Shown: piece by piece, positions 122 through 9,461 of the stretch
Layout: each line of letters opens with the position of its first letter
Numbering within the stretch: position 1 is the first letter of the stretch
Source of the DNA: Patescibacteria group bacterium
GTDB taxonomy: Bacteria; Patescibacteriota; Microgenomatia; UBA1406; GWC2-37-13
Length of the DNA stretch: 64,000 bases
Assembly: GCA_023380935.1 (NCBI GenBank)
Contig: JAMCST010000011.1
Coordinates: 1 to 64,000, forward strand
Direction of reading: 5' to 3'
The notes under the pieces: model-generated
Seen by the model: only the letters and a program-made list of their open reading frames with translations
Told to the model about the DNA's origin: nothing
Databases searched by the model: none
Translations under genes and position numbers: made by a program

Positions 122-331
122 ATGAAACATTTTAAATACCCCGCCTGTCTTGCAGTTAAATATCTTGTCTCAAAATCTCAAGCTTGGGATATTTGTCATG
201 AAGAGCTTCAAAAACTTCCCAATAATAATCAATTTACCTATCGGTACTGTGAACGGTTCTCTAAAGCGTTTCTCTTTGACGGGAAGTACTTCAATACAAC
301 AGACCAAGAGCATGATTGGGTGATTTTATAA
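122..331 (+). CDS. Small hypothetical protein
   Basis: This 69-residue ORF is not recognised. It is rich in aromatic and basic residues and contains two cysteines (in CHEEL and RYCERF). It starts with ATG 12 bases after the hairpin at 74-109 and is more AT-rich than the glycosyltransferase genes downstream. No signal peptide or membrane segment is visible. It could be a genuine small protein or the leftover of a mobile element whose other parts lie left of the window. Confidence 0.35.
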   Translation: MKHFKYPACLAVKYLVSKSQAWDICHEELQKLPNNNQFTYRYCERFSKAFLFDGKYFNTTDQEHDWVIL

Positions 332-379
332 GGAGTCGATTACTTTAGACAGTGTCAACCGTTTTGTGGACGCTACTTT

Positions 380-469
380 TGGCGGTGGGGGCGAGATTCG
401 AACTCGCGATGACGTTGCCGCCATACTGGTTTTCAAGACCAGCTCGTTAGACCACTCCGACACCCCACC
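380..469 (-). tRNA. tRNA-Ser (anticodon UGA)
   Basis: Read on the minus strand, the acceptor stem GGTGGGG pairs with CCCCACC. The anticodon arm CTGGT/ACCAG encloses loop CTTGAAA, so the anticodon is UGA. A long variable arm marks a class II serine tRNA. The T arm carries GTTCGAATC. Discriminator G is followed by an encoded CCA (plus-strand TGG at 380-382). No intron is present. Confidence 0.95.
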
Positions 470-490
470 AACTGACGGGAATGAGATAAG

Positions 491-511
491 AAAACACCAA
501 GAAGGTGTTTT
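491..511 (-). terminator. Terminator-like hairpin between tRNA-Cys and tRNA-Ser
   Basis: The sequence is a perfect 8-bp inverted repeat, AAAACACC and GGTGTTTT, around a 5-nt loop. Read on the minus strand the stem ends in a T-run, as in a rho-independent terminator. It lies just downstream of tRNA-Cys and upstream of tRNA-Ser, so it may separate their transcripts. The stem has only four GC pairs, so termination could be weak. Confidence 0.45.
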
Positions 512-512
512 G

Positions 513-555
513 TCCCAGAAGTATGTATCCGCTTTAGCGGATTACAACTTCGGGA
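513..555. repeat. Long interrupted hairpin in the tRNA spacer
   Basis: Successive segments pair: TCCC with GGGA, GAAGT with ACTTC, and TCCGC with GCGGA around a TTTA loop, with a small internal loop (ATGTA opposite TTACA) between the last two. The whole spacer between tRNA-Cys and the terminator-like hairpin folds. It could help processing of a tRNA-Cys precursor or be a mobile-element end. Confidence 0.5.
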
Positions 556-575
556 TCCCGCACATCTAGGCAAAA

Positions 576-651
576 TGGAGGCGCAGAGGGGAATCGAACC
601 CCTGCGGTAGGTGTTTTGCAGACACCTGCGTTTCCACTTCGCCACTGCGCC
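576..651 (-). tRNA. tRNA-Cys (anticodon GCA)
   Basis: Minus-strand acceptor stem GGCGCAG pairs with CTGCGCC. The anticodon arm GGTGT/ACACC holds loop CTGCAAA, giving anticodon GCA. Discriminator U73 is the usual identity base for cysteine, and CCA is encoded (plus-strand TGG at 576-578). The T arm is AGGGG TTCGATT CCCCT. Two broken copies of its 5' half lie upstream on the same strand. Confidence 0.95.
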
Positions 652-673
652 ATTTTGCAAGATGTTGCTGGGA

Positions 674-706
674 CAGACACCTGCGTTTCCACTTCGCCAA
701 CGCGCC
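674..706 (-). pseudogene. Duplicated 5' half of tRNA-Cys
   Basis: This 33-bp stretch matches bases 619-651 of the intact tRNA-Cys with two adjacent changes in the acceptor strand. Read on the minus strand it covers acceptor, D arm and 5' anticodon stem, and stops in the anticodon loop after G34. No matching 3' half is nearby, so it cannot form a tRNA alone. Confidence 0.8.
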
Positions 707-853
707 TATGCTCCCTTATAAAGCGTTAACCATTATTTTAATGTCTAAAACGTTTCTCCGCCTATTCTTCCTTTTCGCCTTAGCTCCATTTGAAGCACGG
801 CTCAAAGAGCGAATTATGGCGGACTTCGGCTATTTTATGTACAAACGGCCTCG

Positions 854-870
854 CACTTCGCCAACGCGCC
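854..870 (-). pseudogene. Second, shorter fragment of tRNA-Cys 5' half
   Basis: Seventeen bases are identical to 690-706, including the two acceptor changes that distinguish that copy from the intact tRNA-Cys. It therefore derives from the half copy rather than from the functional gene. Confidence 0.6.
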
Positions 871-885
871 ATTATTCCACTATCG

Positions 886-915
886 TAGACAATTATAGCG
901 AAAATCGGTTAAAAT
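886..915 (+). promoter_or_regulatory. Promoter of the GT2 gene at 922
   Basis: A -35-like TAGACA at 886-891 is followed after 18 bases by -10 TAAAAT at 910-915. The ATG at 922 comes only 6 bases after the -10, so the predicted transcript would begin at or next to the start codon. Confidence 0.55.
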
Positions 916-921
916 TGATGC

Positions 922-1677
922 ATGAATCAGGAACGCCCGTTTTTCTCCGTCGTTATTCCTTCGCTCAACGAAGAGGATAATTTACCGATCTTGCTGCAAA
1001 GCATCGTCCATCAAACCGACCGCGACTTTGAGGCAACGGTCTGCGACAGCGGTTCAACCGACGCCACCAAGAGCAAGGCCGAAGCGTTCGCCGGCAAAAT
1101 CCCACGCTTCCGGTTTGTGGAACACCGCTGCAAAAACGTCGGCGCGGCACGCAACTACGGAGCCCAGCTGGCCCGAGGCGAATTTCTCGTGTTTTTCGAC
1201 GCCGACGTCGAGGTCAGCCCCGATTTTTTAGCCGGCATCCGCCGCCACATCAACCAGCATCATCTTGATGATCTGACGATCTGGAACCGCCCGAAACACA
1301 CCAACTGGGTGGGAAAGCTGATTCTGTACCTGCTCAACCTTAATTTGTCACTGTTCCAACACATTAAGCCGGCGGCCAACGGCCCGTGCATCATCATGAG
1401 AAGATCGCTGTTCGAACGGCTGCAGGGCTTTGACGAATCGATCGTCTTCGGCGAAGACTTCGACTTAATCCAGCGCGCCGGCAAACTCAAAGCACGGTTT
1501 GCCGTGTTCCGGCAGCCGATCATCTACGTTTCTACCCGGCGCTTCGAAAAGGAAGGATTACTTTACAGTTTGTTTAAATCGATTAAGGCTCTTATCCACA
1601 TGCTGATCATCGGCCCGATCCGCACACCGATTTTCCATTATGAAATGGGAGGACAATATTATAAAAAAAATCAATAA
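922..1677 (+). CDS. Glycosyltransferase family 2
   Basis: A 251-residue GT-A fold enzyme predicted to transfer a nucleotide-activated sugar in surface glycan synthesis. Visible motifs are the opening strand FFSVVIPSLNEEDNLP, the nucleotide-binding CDSGSTD, the metal-binding FFDADVE and the acceptor-side GEDFD. A hydrophobic stretch near residues 125-145 and another near the C-terminus suggest membrane association. The start is fixed by the promoter that ends 6 bases upstream. The acceptor and sugar cannot be told from sequence. Confidence 0.88.
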   Translation: MNQERPFFSVVIPSLNEEDNLPILLQSIVHQTDRDFEATVCDSGSTDATKSKAEAFAGKIPRFRFVEHRCKNVGAARNYGAQLARGEFLVFFDADVEVSPDFLAGIRRHINQHHLDDLTIWNRPKHTNWVGKLILYLLNLNLSLFQHIKPAANGPCIIMRRSLFERLQGFDESIVFGEDFDLIQRAGKLKARFAVFRQPIIYVSTRRFEKEGLLYSLFKSIKALIHMLIIGPIRTPIFHYEMGGQYYKKNQ

Positions 1678-1683
1678 CCTTAT

Positions 1684-1701
1684 AACTCGTAACCCGTAAC
1701 T
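1684..1701 (+). repeat. Short AACYCGT tandem repeat before the Nudix gene
   Basis: The units AACTCGT and AACCCGT are followed by AACTATG, whose ATG is the start codon of the Nudix gene. The same AACYCG motif forms an 8-bp tandem array inside the gene at 9483. Confidence 0.5.
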
Positions 1702-2148
1702 ATGTCCATGGTATTGCAGACCTCGGCCGGCGGCATTGTCTACAAAAAACAGGCTGGGAAAGTCTTGTGGTTGATCGGTCAACACTCCCAGCATAAAGGC
1801 TGGGTATTTCCCAAGGGCCTGGTGGCCGACCAGCACCAGAATGAACGACTAGATGACGCGGCCTTGCGCGAGGTTGAGGAAGAGGGCGGCGTCAAGGCTA
1901 AAATTATTAAACTGCTGCCCAGTCCGGTATCTTACATTTACCGCTTCGAGGGCCAGCTGACCAAAAAAACCGTCTATTATTTTCTGATGGAGTACGTTTC
2001 CGGCGACCCGCAAAATCACGACTGGGAAATGAGCGAGGCTAAATTTGTCACGGAAGAAGAAGCGATGCAGACCCTAACCTACCCGTCGGACAAGCAGGCT
2101 TTTACCGCTGCACTTAAGCTCTTTACCACCCAACATGAAACGGATTAA
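1702..2148 (+). CDS. Nudix hydrolase
   Basis: A 148-residue Nudix protein expected to hydrolyse a nucleoside diphosphate linked to another group. The Nudix box is near residues 39-64: the E-x7-RE-V-x-EE-x-G-V core is intact (ERLDDAALREVEEEGGV). The spacing from the leading G to the first E is eight residues instead of five, a small insertion seen in diadenosine-polyphosphate or NDP-sugar relatives. The 3' end overlaps the next gene by 14 bases, suggesting translational coupling. The substrate is unknown. Confidence 0.85.
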   Translation: MSMVLQTSAGGIVYKKQAGKVLWLIGQHSQHKGWVFPKGLVADQHQNERLDDAALREVEEEGGVKAKIIKLLPSPVSYIYRFEGQLTKKTVYYFLMEYVSGDPQNHDWEMSEAKFVTEEEAMQTLTYPSDKQAFTAALKLFTTQHETD

Positions 2149-3943
2149 ACCCCTACTGCCATACGGTGTTTTTACTATCGTCATCGTCTGTGTATTTATC
2201 TATACTGTCTCGATCAGACAACCCTGGTTTGGACAACTGATCAGCGGCGACCAGCATAATCTGACCGGAAGCACGCTCAAGTTTGCCCGGATCTGGTACC
2301 AGGAAAAACCGTGGAATGTCGCCTTCGGGATGATCGAACAACCCCGATCAGTGGAAAACGGGTCGCTCCAGCAACGGGAACCCTATATCTCTTACCCTCC
2401 AGGCGCCGTTATCCCGATCTATCTGCTCGCCGTCCTGCTTGGTCATGAACCTACCGTAGCAATGGTGATGGGTTTTAACCTTTTTAGCCACGTAGTCACG
2501 GCTCTGCTACTTACTTACCTGGCATTTTTCCTGTTTAAGCGCGCGCTTAAAAACGCGCTCTTTTCCTATGTTTTACCCCTCATTCCCGGCCTACTGTTTC
2601 TTTTGCTACCGGGCGTGCTCTTTTGGCAACAAAATATCTACTTTGCCGATCAGGCGGTAATCCTACCGGTAGTAATCATCATGTTGATCGAGATTGTCCG
2701 CGACCAGCGCCAAAGCCAGCGGCTGACCACCATACTCAATATAGCGCAGCCGATCGTCATGGTTTATGGATCACTGACCGATTATTTTTTCCTGTTCCTA
2801 TTAATCGTGTTGTATCTTAAACGGCTACTGACTGATAAGCAAATTAAATCAGTTAAATCATTGATTACCACCACGTTGCGCTTTTGGTGGCCGGCCCTAC
2901 TGACATACGCGGCCTTTATCTTACAGGTGATCTACCTGGGCGGACTAGCCCATCTCCAGGAGAAGCTGCTTCAACGCACCGGCATGCAGATGGCGGAGAG
3001 TAACATTAGACTGCGATTTTTTGAGATATTTTGGCTGCAGCATATTTTCAACGCCTACGGCAAACAGGCATTTTGGTTGATCTGGATCTCTTTATTTAAC
3101 GTGCTTGCCTGGGCAGTCACCTACTGGGTAGGTCTGCGTAAAACCATGGAGCCAGCCAAACGTAATCAGTTTCTACGTCTATTTTTTTACGGCGCCGCTT
3201 TTGTCGTACCCCAGTTTCTCCAGATATACTGGCTGCGGGAACACTCATATATGCACGACTTTTCTTCTTTCAAATTCAGTTTGACCGTCACTATGGTGCC
3301 GTTTGTCTTTATCCCGATTCAACTATCCAGCCTCTCCCAAAAACAGAACAGTAACCGATCCTCAAGTTCAGCCGTTCGATTGTACCTGGCCGGCTTGATC
3401 ATGGTCGTTTTAGTCTTTATCCTCTACCTTTTCCGGCACGTCAACCACGAAGACCTACAACTACTGTTAAACAGCTTGTTAATTGCCTGGCCTGTGTTTA
3501 TAACGGTCTTTCTCTTGTCGGCCGATTTCCCGGTTTCCCCTTCCCTGGCGATAATCGCGGTTGGCGTCACGGTACTAATTTTGATTTACATCGCCTTTCC
3601 CCTTTACAGAAACCACTTCGGCAAAACCAGTCTTAACTACGAAGCGCTCGGCAACTCCATCCGCAAATGTACCAATTACAACGAAGTATTGATCTCGCCT
3701 GTTTATAACGCCCCTTCAAACCCGCCGCAAATGATCACCTTTACCATGAAACCGGTTCATAAAATCGACCAATTCGCGCAGATCAAGCAGTATACTGATC
3801 AAATCAAAAAACCGTACGATCTGGTGGGAATTTTCCCGGAAAAACCCCAGGGACAGTACGACGATTGGTTAAAATACAAACTGACCCAATGGTCGTGCGG
3901 AGGAAATTATTTTGTTCTCCTTGATAAACGAATCCTCCAGTAA
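2135..3943 (+). CDS. Polytopic membrane protein, divergent GT-C-like
   Basis: A 602-residue protein with about 12 hydrophobic segments and a soluble C-terminal tail. After TM1 an extracytoplasmic loop carries SGDQH (D39), then SYPPG near residue 89 before the next membrane span. An acidic residue in the first loop followed by YPP is typical of GT-C enzymes that use polyprenyl-phosphate sugars outside the membrane, but overall similarity to a named family is not evident. It overlaps the Nudix gene by 14 bases and its end overlaps the convergent gene by 37 bases. Confidence 0.7.
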   Translation: MKRIKPLLPYGVFTIVIVCVFIYTVSIRQPWFGQLISGDQHNLTGSTLKFARIWYQEKPWNVAFGMIEQPRSVENGSLQQREPYISYPPGAVIPIYLLAVLLGHEPTVAMVMGFNLFSHVVTALLLTYLAFFLFKRALKNALFSYVLPLIPGLLFLLLPGVLFWQQNIYFADQAVILPVVIIMLIEIVRDQRQSQRLTTILNIAQPIVMVYGSLTDYFFLFLLIVLYLKRLLTDKQIKSVKSLITTTLRFWWPALLTYAAFILQVIYLGGLAHLQEKLLQRTGMQMAESNIRLRFFEIFWLQHIFNAYGKQAFWLIWISLFNVLAWAVTYWVGLRKTMEPAKRNQFLRLFFYGAAFVVPQFLQIYWLREHSYMHDFSSFKFSLTVTMVPFVFIPIQLSSLSQKQNSNRSSSSAVRLYLAGLIMVVLVFILYLFRHVNHEDLQLLLNSLLIAWPVFITVFLLSADFPVSPSLAIIAVGVTVLILIYIAFPLYRNHFGKTSLNYEALGNSIRKCTNYNEVLISPVYNAPSNPPQMITFTMKPVHKIDQFAQIKQYTDQIKKPYDLVGIFPEKPQGQYDDWLKYKLTQWSCGGNYFVLLDKRILQ

Positions 3944-4836
3944 TCCACTATCGCTGCGGTGAAAAAAATCGTCATCCAAAGACCCGACTTGTAACTAACA
4001 AAATACGCGTGGGTCAACATTCCGTAGGCATAAGGAATAACATAAAGCGGGATGATTCGTACGAGCGCCTGAGCATAGTCATCGATAAGGGAAGAATAAA
4101 AAACCAATAGGACAAACCAAATCAAACCGGTGACCAAGGTGAGCGAATGATTGGCAAAAATGTCAAAAAAGGAAAGTAATAATATCGCGATAATGTTAAC
4201 GTGACGATAAAGCGCCCGGTTTCCCACCACCAGATAGAGAACGTAAAGAAGAAAATACAAGACATCGGTGATGAATAACGCTGTAGCTGCGCCTTGGTTA
4301 AGACTAAAAACCGCCTTGTTCGTCAGAAAACTCAGCAGGAGTTGCGGGTGATGAATTAACTGGCTTTTAGGAAAGGCGTATCCCAACACCACGCCGGGAT
4401 ATGACGGGTCAAGGGACACTCCGTTTAACTGCCCTTTGCTGACGGATAGTTCGATCGTGTAGGTTTTTCCTTGAGAATCAGGAATAATCGGGAAACCAAA
4501 CGGAAACAAGGGAAGTTTGATAAACTGAACGGTATAGTAAGTTTGTTCATAATACCAGTGATGACTGCCTTTTTCTTTTATCCTAAAGGTCAATCGGTCG
4601 TCGTTGATTCTTTGCCCATCAAATCTGATCTTCACCATGCCAAGGTTGTTTTCTTTGGCCGTAAAACTGCCTTTGACCGGTACGCCCTTAACAAAATCTC
4701 GGCCGGTGTTTATCTTGAAGACCGAGGCGGTGCCCAAATACTGGGAAAGATTGGTGACGGGACGATCGGAAAGCAGCAATTGATATAATGATAAACCAAT
4801 CACCAAAACCGCACCGACAATAAAGCCGCGTTTCAT
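3907..4836 (-). CDS. Hypothetical membrane protein
   Basis: Unrecognised 309-residue protein. An N-terminal membrane anchor (residues 4-22) is followed by a soluble, beta-rich region to about residue 160. Four or five hydrophobic segments fill the C-terminal half, ending in basic residues. The order resembles envelope proteins with one outside domain and a helical membrane bundle. It lies 20 bases downstream of the Nudix gene at 4857-5312. A TATTCT box 5 bases before its ATG could give it its own start. Confidence 0.55.
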   Translation of the reverse strand: MKRGFIVGAVLVIGLSLYQLLLSDRPVTNLSQYLGTASVFKINTGRDFVKGVPVKGSFTAKENNLGMVKIRFDGQRINDDRLTFRIKEKGSHHWYYEQTYYTVQFIKLPLFPFGFPIIPDSQGKTYTIELSVSKGQLNGVSLDPSYPGVVLGYAFPKSQLIHHPQLLLSFLTNKAVFSLNQGAATALFITDVLYFLLYVLYLVVGNRALYRHVNIIAILLLSFFDIFANHSLTLVTGLIWFVLLVFYSSLIDDYAQALVRIIPLYVIPYAYGMLTHAYFVSYKSGLWMTIFFTAAIVDYWRIRLSRRTK

Positions 4837-6891: not shown

Positions 6892-6933
6892 GGCGGGTAA
6901 GGATCGCGTTCTGATCGGTAAACTACGGCTCCC
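6892..6933 (-). pseudogene. tRNA 5'-half remnant upstream of tRNA-Ile
   Basis: Read on the minus strand it starts GGGAGCC (acceptor-like), then CGTAGTTTACCG, which is 12 bases identical to tRNA-Gly at 6642-6653. A D-arm closing AAC follows, and it ends in TACCCGCC with no anticodon arm. The same TACCCGCC ends the 5'-half remnant at 8650-8677. Confidence 0.4.
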
Positions 6934-8362: not shown

Positions 8363-8398
8363 ATTATGGGCTTTAAGTGCGAATGCTGAAGCCTCCGG

Positions 8399-8471
8399 TG
8401 GACTCGAGGGGAGTCGAACCCCTGATCTCCGCAATGCGAATGCGGTGTTCTACCAACTGAACTACGAGCCC
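8399..8471 (-). tRNA. tRNA-Ala (anticodon CGC)
   Basis: Minus-strand acceptor GGGCTCG pairs with CGAGTCC through one G-U pair at the third position, not the usual G3-U70 orientation of other positions. Anticodon arm CCGCA/TGCGG encloses TTCGCAT, giving CGC. The T arm is CAGGGG TTCGACT CCCCT. Discriminator A; CCA is not encoded. It lies 37 bases upstream of the SDR start. Confidence 0.92.
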
Positions 8472-8510: not shown

Positions 8511-8554
8511 TGTCCCCGGGGAGAATCGAACTCCCGCCTTAGGTTCCGCCCGCC
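8511..8554 (-). pseudogene. tRNA 3'-half remnant
   Basis: The minus strand carries an intact T arm GGGAG TTCGATT CTCCC, followed by an acceptor-like CGGGGAC and discriminator A. Upstream of the T arm no anticodon stem can be formed; the sequence is GGCGGGCGGAACC. Together with the 5'-half at 8650-8677 it frames tRNA-Arg. Confidence 0.6.
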
Positions 8555-8655
8555 TTCATTTGTGCCCTCGAAGGGAATTGAACCCTTATCACTGGTTCCG
8601 GAAACCAGTACTCTATCCGTTGAGCTACAAGGGCTTACCACAAATGATTGGCGGG
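8549..8655. repeat. Inverted repeat around tRNA-Arg
   Basis: The arm at 8549-8564 (CCCGCCTTCATTTGTG) is matched in inverse orientation at 8639-8655, with 15 base pairs and a small AA/T irregularity. In the minus-strand transcript the 5' leader and 3' trailer of tRNA-Arg would pair and extend the acceptor stem; the discriminator base is part of this helix. Confidence 0.7.
8563..8634 (-). tRNA. tRNA-Arg (anticodon CCG)
   Basis: Minus-strand acceptor GCCCTTG pairs with CGAGGGC through one G-U pair. Anticodon arm CTGGT/ACCAG holds TTCCGGA, giving CCG. The T arm is AAGGG TTCAATT CCCTT. Discriminator A; CCA is not encoded. It sits inside an inverted repeat and between halves of a degenerate tRNA. 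Confidence 0.93.
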
Positions 8656-8677
8656 TATTCATTGAACTACAAAGACC
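8650..8677 (-). pseudogene. tRNA 5'-half remnant
   Basis: On the minus strand it reads GGTCTTT GTAGTTCAATG AATA then CCCGCC, resembling an acceptor strand and a D arm with a shortened loop. Its acceptor strand pairs only partly, mostly by wobble, with the 3'-half remnant at 8511-8554. Confidence 0.5.
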
Positions 8678-8681
8678 AATA

Positions 8682-9461
8682 CTACTTTAAAAAGAGCAAT
8701 AATATTATAGCAAGTGCGATCCGATAAATCCCGAAGGGAATCAGGGTGTTCTTTTGGAGAAACCCGATAAACCACTTCATGACGAAATATGCCACCACAA
8801 ACGCCGCCAGCGTTCCGATCAGCAACAATGACAACGACTGGCCCGAATGCATTAACAGACCGCGCATTTTGAACAGGTCATATCCCGAAGCGGCCAATAT
8901 CGTGGGGACAGCCAGGAGAAAGGAATAACGCGCCGCTTCGTCGCGCCGATAGCCCAATCCCATCATTCCCACCATGACAATCCCCGAGCGCGACACGCCC
9001 GGCACCACAGCCAGCGCCTGGACTAACCCGATCAAAGCCGCCTGGCGGTCGGACATCTGGTCAAGCTGACGGTTAAGCCGCTTTGTCTGTTTTTTCAGCT
9101 TCAGTTCCAAGACGATAAACACGCCGCCGACGATCAACAGCGCCATGATAATTAGCAGGTTCGAGTTGAAAAAAACCGTCTTGATAATTTTGTATAGCAA
9201 AAAACCGATAACGGCGGTCGGAACAAAGGAAAACGCCAGCTGTCTTATTAAATAGAGATGGCGACGCAGATACTGGGCGTAGAGAAAAACCACCGCCAAA
9301 ATGGCTCCAGCCTGGATAAACACCTCGAAAAAACTCTGAAACGCGGTTTGGGCAAGACCCAGCAAATGACCGGTGATGATGAGATGGGCAGTTGAGGAAA
9401 CCGGCAAGAATTCGGTTAATCCTTCAACCACTCCGAGGACAAGGGCATGCAATATCGTCAT
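8682..9461 (-). CDS. uppP: Undecaprenyl-diphosphatase UppP (BacA)
   Basis: 259 residues with about eight membrane helices. It dephosphorylates undecaprenyl diphosphate on the outer face to recycle the lipid carrier for peptidoglycan and surface glycans. Both family signatures are intact: EGLTEFLPVSSTAHL (residues 13-27, with the two catalytic Glu and the Ser/His) and PGVSRSG near residue 155. The size is typical. It diverges from the GT4 gene at 9483 with only 21 bases between start codons, fitting a shared role in carrier-linked glycan synthesis. Confidence 0.95.
   Translation of the reverse strand: MTILHALVLGVVEGLTEFLPVSSTAHLIITGHLLGLAQTAFQSFFEVFIQAGAILAVVFLYAQYLRRHLYLIRQLAFSFVPTAVIGFLLYKIIKTVFFNSNLLIIMALLIVGGVFIVLELKLKKQTKRLNRQLDQMSDRQAALIGLVQALAVVPGVSRSGIVMVGMMGLGYRRDEAARYSFLLAVPTILAASGYDLFKMRGLLMHSGQSLSLLLIGTLAAFVVAYFVMKWFIGFLQKNTLIPFGIYRIALAIILLLFLK

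Follow-up and report, generated by a model that had tools for sequence, protein, structure and literature searches.

Integrative elements use tRNA genes as attachment sites, and the function of the tRNA is kept by sequence that the element brings. The archaeal recombinases of integrative elements that occupy tRNA sites have been described (PMC8371274). Free-standing GIY-YIG homing endonucleases occur in tRNA clusters (PMC13096335, PMC2988022); one of them, phage SegB, is reported to be widely linked to tRNAs, to drive their amplification and to cut within tRNA genes at RAWTSGAAC, the reverse complement of which is a T-loop sequence (PMC13096335). An inventory of insertions in the rRNA genes of the Candidate Phyla Radiation (CPR), bacteria that are tiny and for the most part uncultured, reported GIY-YIG open reading frames in non-intron inserts, and its main text is silent on tRNA (PMC11270868). 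Our literature search, with subscription papers and preprints outside its range, found no description of a nested tRNA or a tRNA intron in Patescibacteria. Here we analyse such a nested gene in a 64,000-nucleotide stretch of a Patescibacteria genome (the window), and we consider it probable that it belongs to a recurrent Patescibacteria class in which a resident tRNA is interrupted by an armed insert carrying a complete replacement of the same isoacceptor. Nested replacement looks like a previously undescribed way to swap an essential gene.

The locus spans 8511-8676 and is read on the minus strand. At its centre lies an intact tRNA-Arg(CCG) at 8634-8562, identified by ARAGORN and by Rfam (RF00005, 67.6 bits). 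This inner gene (8562..8634) is flanked by two parts of an outer, native tRNA-Arg(CCG): a 5′ remnant (8656..8676; GTCTTTGTAGTTCAATGAATA) comprising the acceptor 5′ strand and the D arm up to the D loop, and a 3′ remnant (8511..8548; CGGAACCTAAGGCGGGAGTTCGATTCTCCCCGGGGACA) that starts at C35 and keeps its T arm intact, along with the 3′ strand of the acceptor. The outer acceptor strands, GTCTTTG and CGGGGAC, pair at 7/7 positions, three of them as G-U. Between the remnants, the insert of ~107 bp consists of two complementary arms and one tRNA, with a 5′ arm at 8635..8655 (CCCGCCAATCATTTGTGGTAA, written CCCGCC AA TCATTTGTG GTAA or split as CCCGCC AA TCATTTGT G GTAA) and a 3′ arm at 8549..8561 (AAATGAAGGCGGG, written AAATGA A GGCGGG or (C)ACAAATGA A GGCGGG). 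The CCCGCC motif at the end of the 5′ arm recurs in other cassettes. An earlier note on this DNA correctly placed the insert at the D-loop/anticodon position of the outer tRNA; it also recognized the 5′ half but ran it from 8677 to 8650, whereas the half stops at 8656 and 8655-8650 are arm. Upstream on the same strand is a gene for 259 aa (8682..9461) that we take, from its sequence, to be uppP-like, and downstream is tRNA-Ala(CGC) (8397..8471, minus strand; assigned by ARAGORN and by synteny in relatives). The end of the uppP-like gene contains TTGCTATAAT, a conserved promoter-like site of the native tRNA. Because the 21-nt arm preceding the inner tRNA-Arg(CCG) has no obvious promoter, the inner gene is presumably transcribed from this native promoter.

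The order uppP - tRNA-Arg - tRNA-Ala is also found in relatives. Un-nested orthologues of tRNA-Arg(CCG) occupy this neighbourhood in G016 (L062), G007 (L060), G014 (L061), G026 and the genus-mate G001 (L074), each with uppP bearing the TTGCTATAAT site at its end, one ordinary tRNA-Arg(CCG) and tRNA-Ala(CGC). Insertion predicts such un-nested orthologues, and those at L062, L060, L061 and L074, which have neither the halves nor the inverted repeat, contradict the idea of a conserved precursor. The outer parts of the window locus match the native G016 gene at 18/21 and 33/38 positions, whereas the inner gene matches it at only 15/21 and 26/38 and is nearer to tRNA-Arg genes elsewhere (89% identity in G003, 85% to the tRNA-Arg(TCG) of its own genome). 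The upstream (5′) outer half outscores all 2000 shuffles, and chance resemblance is ruled out, on sequence grounds, for the outer pieces in the window. Native nucleotides 22-34 (GAATAAGGGCTTC), a run of 13 nt that takes in the 5′ anticodon strand, are absent between the two remnants, so that in the outer copy the D stem and the anticodon stem each retain a single strand and the gene cannot function. Judged by these sequence relationships, the remnants belong to the resident tRNA-Arg(CCG) of the locus, now dead, and a distinct, incoming tRNA-Arg(CCG), the inner gene, has replaced it. The suggestion that one tRNA may have been inserted into another was borne out; the outer 'degenerate tRNA' is the resident gene rather than an arbitrary tRNA.

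The predicted minus-strand fold of the locus contains the inner cloverleaf, arm helices of 8 bp and 6 bp and the outer acceptor helix, as the earlier note had described, with an energy of -67.1 kcal/mol and z = -2.67 relative to dinucleotide shuffles. Discriminator A73 of the inner tRNA lies within the predicted arm helices, in keeping with the proposal that this base is paired. The inverted repeat, put at 15 bp, does have 15 complementary bases, of which 14 are free to pair, since the innermost would take up inner-acceptor base C72. When 43 nested transcripts were folded as ensembles, the inner stems had a mean pair probability of 0.70 in context vs 0.59 after shuffling of the arms alone, and arm shuffling lowered inner folding at 35/43 loci (Wilcoxon p = 1.2e-5). 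The corresponding values were 0.84 vs 0.69 at the window locus and 0.98 vs 0.37 at L370, where inner and outer sequences are identical. Because shuffling the arms lowers inner folding in these models, the arms probably insulate the fold of the inner tRNA. The notion of an unusual precursor holds only as far as predicted leader-trailer pairing and protection of the inner fold are concerned; of maturation of the outer tRNA there is no sign.

Two of the six further tRNA genes in the window, those for Ile and Cys, have the same history as tRNA-Arg. The native tRNA-Ile(TAT) survives as a 5′ half (6898..6932, minus strand) that matches the native tRNA-Ile(TAT) of G030 (L027) and is followed on the same strand by an arm at 6897-6881 (CCCGCCTGACAAAGCTT; the CCCGCCTG arm) and by the replacement tRNA-Ile(TAT) at 6880-6808; the native 3′ half is lost. 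The tRNA-Cys(GCA) at 651-576 (locus 503..706, minus strand) lies in a type-2 insert, TCCCAG...GGGATCCCGAAG...TTCTGGGA, which has two hairpins, ends TCCCAG/CTGGGA and the centre CGGGATCCCGAAG, and which is flanked on that strand by outer tRNA-Cys remnants (5′ half, 706-674; 3′ remnant, 512-503). The tRNA set of this genome (G000) was compiled from its 28 loci, and its tRNA-Trp on contig 13 is a textbook nested case. Separately, at L057 and L051 of this genome, tRNA-Leu(CAA) has its own 17-nt 5′ end plus a repeat, CAACTGGCAGTTGACGATACGCAGTGAG...CTCGGGAGCAGACGTAAAGAT, upstream, and a similar repeat lies upstream of tRNA-Leu(CAG). In the type-2 Thr cassettes of L082 and L139, the 3′ strand of the inner acceptor is present once more in the trailer (TCACGGC, TGTCGGC); between genera this extra copy and the inner 5′ strand covary, and a competing fold might form.

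The arrangement recurs in related genomes, where the earlier note had advised looking for it, and in many other CPR lineages. ARAGORN in intron mode mislabels nested loci, so we used a dedicated parser, combined with split alignment, that accepts a locus only if it has an outer T arm and acceptor strands that match, and that favours recognisable outers. The genomes compared are draft metagenome assemblies, with G026 in one contig. Parser matches together with loci read by eye place the nested architecture in at least 18 genomes of the family (Roizmanbacteria), and the parser recovered tens of nested loci there. A pattern of two T loops at a spacing too short for tandem tRNAs hits 41/72 family genomes, a reversed control pattern giving fewer hits. 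About 20 anticodons are affected, inner and outer tRNAs being nearly always of the same isoacceptor and orientation, and the nested loci have arm motifs in common (CCCGCCTGCC...GGCGGGCAGG). When the outer parts were rejoined, the anticodon equalled that of the inner tRNA in 34/41 scored cases and the anticodon stem was fully paired in 34/41; exceptions to the anticodon match are largely parser mis-splits or non-nested hits, with one possible real case (L117, TCT in TCG). The cut falls mostly within the anticodon loop (Ile GA^TAA, Met CA^TAA, Trp CTC^CAAA, Thr CG^TAA, Gly TTC^CAA, Val GACA^T) and in a minority of loci in the D loop. For inverted nesting a loose pattern proved too unspecific, and the parser, used instead, found none among 74 tRNAs of two genomes.

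An arm motif was also sought across the 84,980 species genomes of GTDB. Among the matches listed, true nested cases are almost only from CPR: Roizman-, Gottesman-, Levy-, Curtiss-, Woyke-, Davies-, Blackburn-, Magasanik-, Uhr-, Falkow-, Doudna-, Kerfeld-, Wolfe-, Jorgensen-, Staskawicz- and Vogelbacteria. One nested case among the matches listed is on a contig titled Ignavibacteriales. At this locus (L349), whose contig seems to include rpoB, a tRNA-Trp is nested between type-1 arms, which might represent spread beyond CPR. In IMG/VR the arm pattern hit four contigs with no convincing nested tRNA, the type-2 motif hit none, and a phage origin was rejected on these results.

Empty sites record individual insertions. 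Within genus g7, the outer tRNA-Arg(TCG) of G007 is one contiguous intact gene in G057 and its outer tRNA-Met is contiguous in G060; compared with these congeneric sites, insertion was exact and produced no target duplication. Inner Ile-GAT genes are near-identical in G001, G012 and G024, which represent three genera, and their outers have decayed differently; G000, the genus-mate of G001, keeps an empty native Ile-GAT site. In G057, what was formerly an inner tRNA-Thr acceptor type is now an outer, which suggests a second round of insertion. That such loci are a product of chance or of assembly, with unrelated tRNA-like fragments near a tRNA, is scarcely credible: the genomes are drafts and the window has one weak outer, yet the arms are common to dozens of independent genomes, the empty sites are contiguous and synteny is kept.

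As to its origin, the inner gene could have been copied from the outer gene by break repair or template switching at an anticodon-loop palindrome, its acceptor diverging later because equal acceptors misfold. Inner and outer are identical at L370 and differ almost solely by one or two acceptor pairs at L353 and L349 (one compensatory pair at L349), so that for these loci a local copy fits as well as an incoming one; the Thr loci of G024 and G036, where inner and outer have a common body and differ mainly in the acceptor, and the direct 5′ duplications in the composites described below also favour local duplication. At the window Arg locus and at the Arg and Met loci of G007, however, the inner gene differs from the resident along its whole length and resembles tRNAs of other genomes, and the near-identical Ile inners of three genera sit in different outers. 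We therefore regard local duplication as a doubtful general account and retain entry of an incoming copy.

If the outer tRNA were still made, these loci would be tRNA introns: RNase P and 3′ processing would free the inner tRNA, and the outer halves, held by the arms, would be ligated, so that both matured. Rejoined outer exons are incomplete at the window Arg locus, where 13 nt, the 5′ anticodon strand among them, are lost, but give a complete tRNA at many other nested loci; at most loci they form a perfect cloverleaf with the right anticodon, and many outers are structurally perfect (7/7, 5/5, 5/5). Between G007 and G060 the outer and arms are 97-100% identical, while the flanks are 69-81% identical or unalignable. 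Perfect outers and this conservation require either recent insertion and spread or selection on the outer. Against a living outer, two changes separate the outers of G007 and G060, and one of them, in G060, breaks an acceptor pair; some outers have gathered additional palindromes in their D or T loops or are truncated, the window's among them. The tRNA splicing endonuclease (PF01974) was found in 0/30 relatives, including the window's own genome, with four archaeal controls positive. Rfam searches at permissive E-values returned nothing but tRNA and noise for the window locus and eight other nested loci, and the ~107-nt insert has no match to a self-splicing group I intron core. The complete, one-contig relative G026 has 46 intact tRNAs, one per isoacceptor except for two tRNA-Met(CAT) and with the nested isoacceptors included, so splicing is not needed there. 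With no ribozyme, no splicing endonuclease and a full intact set in G026, we rejected the intron reading, which we consider improbable, and infer that the outer copy is not matured. Our preferred reading is frequent recent insertion, which accounts for perfect or conserved outers and for decayed ones alike.

The candidates for the driver of insertion include GIY-YIG nucleases. In G026, 8/11 GIY-YIG genes have a tRNA gene within 150 bp vs 0.24 expected, a number reached in 0/5000 randomisations, and the linked genes are all on the strand of the tRNA; in other genomes, 10 of the top 30 GIY-YIG hits lie within 200 bp of a tRNA gene, again all on the same strand. Composites in which the 5′ part of a broken tRNA is joined by a GIY-YIG gene and an intact tRNA of that type are present in the window's own genome and in G026 (Asn, Gly-TCC, Ser-GGA and Pro-GGG). 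The own-genome composite for Ser-CGA (L056, contig 11 near 77 kb) has a broken 5′ part with palindromes, a GIY-YIG gene and an intact tRNA-Ser(CGA) whose 5′ part is identical to the broken one, with another GIY-YIG gene after it. In G022, a nuclease gene and an intact tRNA-Thr are located at a cut in the T-loop GTTC. The GIY-YIG gene is absent from the window insert and from all the short cassettes, adjoins some nested loci elsewhere and is part of the composites; type-1 arms were not found around any enzyme gene. Taken together, the linkage of GIY-YIG genes to tRNA genes, the composites, the precedent of SegB and the rRNA-insert survey make homing by tRNA-cutting GIY-YIG nucleases, in which the replacement tRNA would serve as rescue, the foremost putative mechanism. 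As a separate observation, contig 2 of G005 (272-4396) has twelve tandem GIY-YIG matches with equal scores and a constant spacing of 357 bp.

A tRNA-site integrase is not indicated: the insert is too short to encode one, and the empty sites reveal no direct repeat of a tRNA end or other target duplication. It is possible, though we lean against it, that GIY-YIG nucleases have no role and that REP/MITE-like palindromes, moved by RAYT/Y1 transposases, enter the hairpin tips of tRNA genes, occasionally with a tRNA. The arm motif is related to intergenic palindromes (CCTGCCTGCCGGCAGGCAGG), similar palindromes without cargo occur intergenically and in tRNA loops (D and T), and Y1 transposases are present in 23/30 relatives, one of them adjoining the nested tRNA-Trp of the window's own genome. 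This RAYT-like gene (L208 4640-5275, G000 contig 13) lies between two copies of CACCTACGAGGTGGATTGGGT, ~40 bp from the tRNA. In the family, RAYTs flanked by hairpins of their own occur commonly; in the sample inspected, each has a short hairpin peculiar to it (e.g. CACCTACGAGGTG) and none has type-1 or type-2 arms. On this sample the RAYT, common as it is, was rejected as the mover because its flanking hairpins are unlike the arms. The conserved ends CCCGCCTGCC and GGCGGGCAGG and the cargo-less palindromes suggest that the arms double as the termini of a mobile palindrome.

In our main reading, which we consider probable, a ~107-bp insert entered the resident tRNA-Arg(CCG) between the D loop and the anticodon, and the inner gene now supplies the essential tRNA, presumably as a long precursor from the resident promoter. 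The arms would pair around the inner tRNA, confine the outer remnants to their own domain and prevent mispairing between inner and outer. Such an insert would be harmless to its host because it comes with a substitute for the gene that it disrupts, and it may spread through DNA breakage and repair at tRNA genes, most likely via tRNA-linked GIY-YIG homing endonucleases. More speculatively, and with less confidence than doubt, we propose a new class of selfish element, the home-and-rescue tRNA cassette, in which nuclease-driven invasion of single-copy essential tRNA genes delivers a diverged, cut-resistant and arm-insulated copy of the same tRNA, so that CPR acceptor stems would be turned over by invasion, not mutation. 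Entry of an incoming copy into the resident, whose position it assumes, is a route for in-place replacement of an RNA gene that is both essential and single-copy. In CPR genomes it would account for unusual leaders and trailers, for tRNA fragments that look like duplicates and for a rapid turnover of tRNAs; it also affects automated tRNA annotation there and would link the many small CPR GIY-YIG nucleases to a concrete target.

Each of the known systems resembles these cassettes in part. T-even SegB and other free-standing GIY-YIG enzymes are likewise encoded by small nuclease genes co-located with tRNA genes, but SegB is a phage protein encoded beside tRNA arrays, with neither arms nor a tRNA nested in its cognate, and the short cassettes described above are free of nuclease genes. 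Bacterial tRNA genes also host group I introns (PMC3984707), which are likewise insertions neutral to the host; theirs is a neutrality of self-splicing, whereas the cassettes, with no ribozyme match, would be neutral by virtue of a complete replacement tRNA. The inserts of CPR rRNA genes (PMC11270868) are similarly short, uncharacterised and placed at the tops or bases of stem-loops, but they are confined to rRNA and have no replacement gene inside, unlike the tRNA cassettes. Archaeal intron-containing and disrupted tRNAs (PMC4090602) have halves parted in the anticodon loop, as here, but need a splicing endonuclease that is absent from these genomes, in which the 'intron' is a tRNA that has the isoacceptor type of the outer one. 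Integrative elements at tRNA sites have in common with the cassettes both the target and the preservation of function by incoming sequence; they restore a missing 3′ part, whereas the cassettes bring a whole nested tRNA, with no integrase and no attachment-site repeat.
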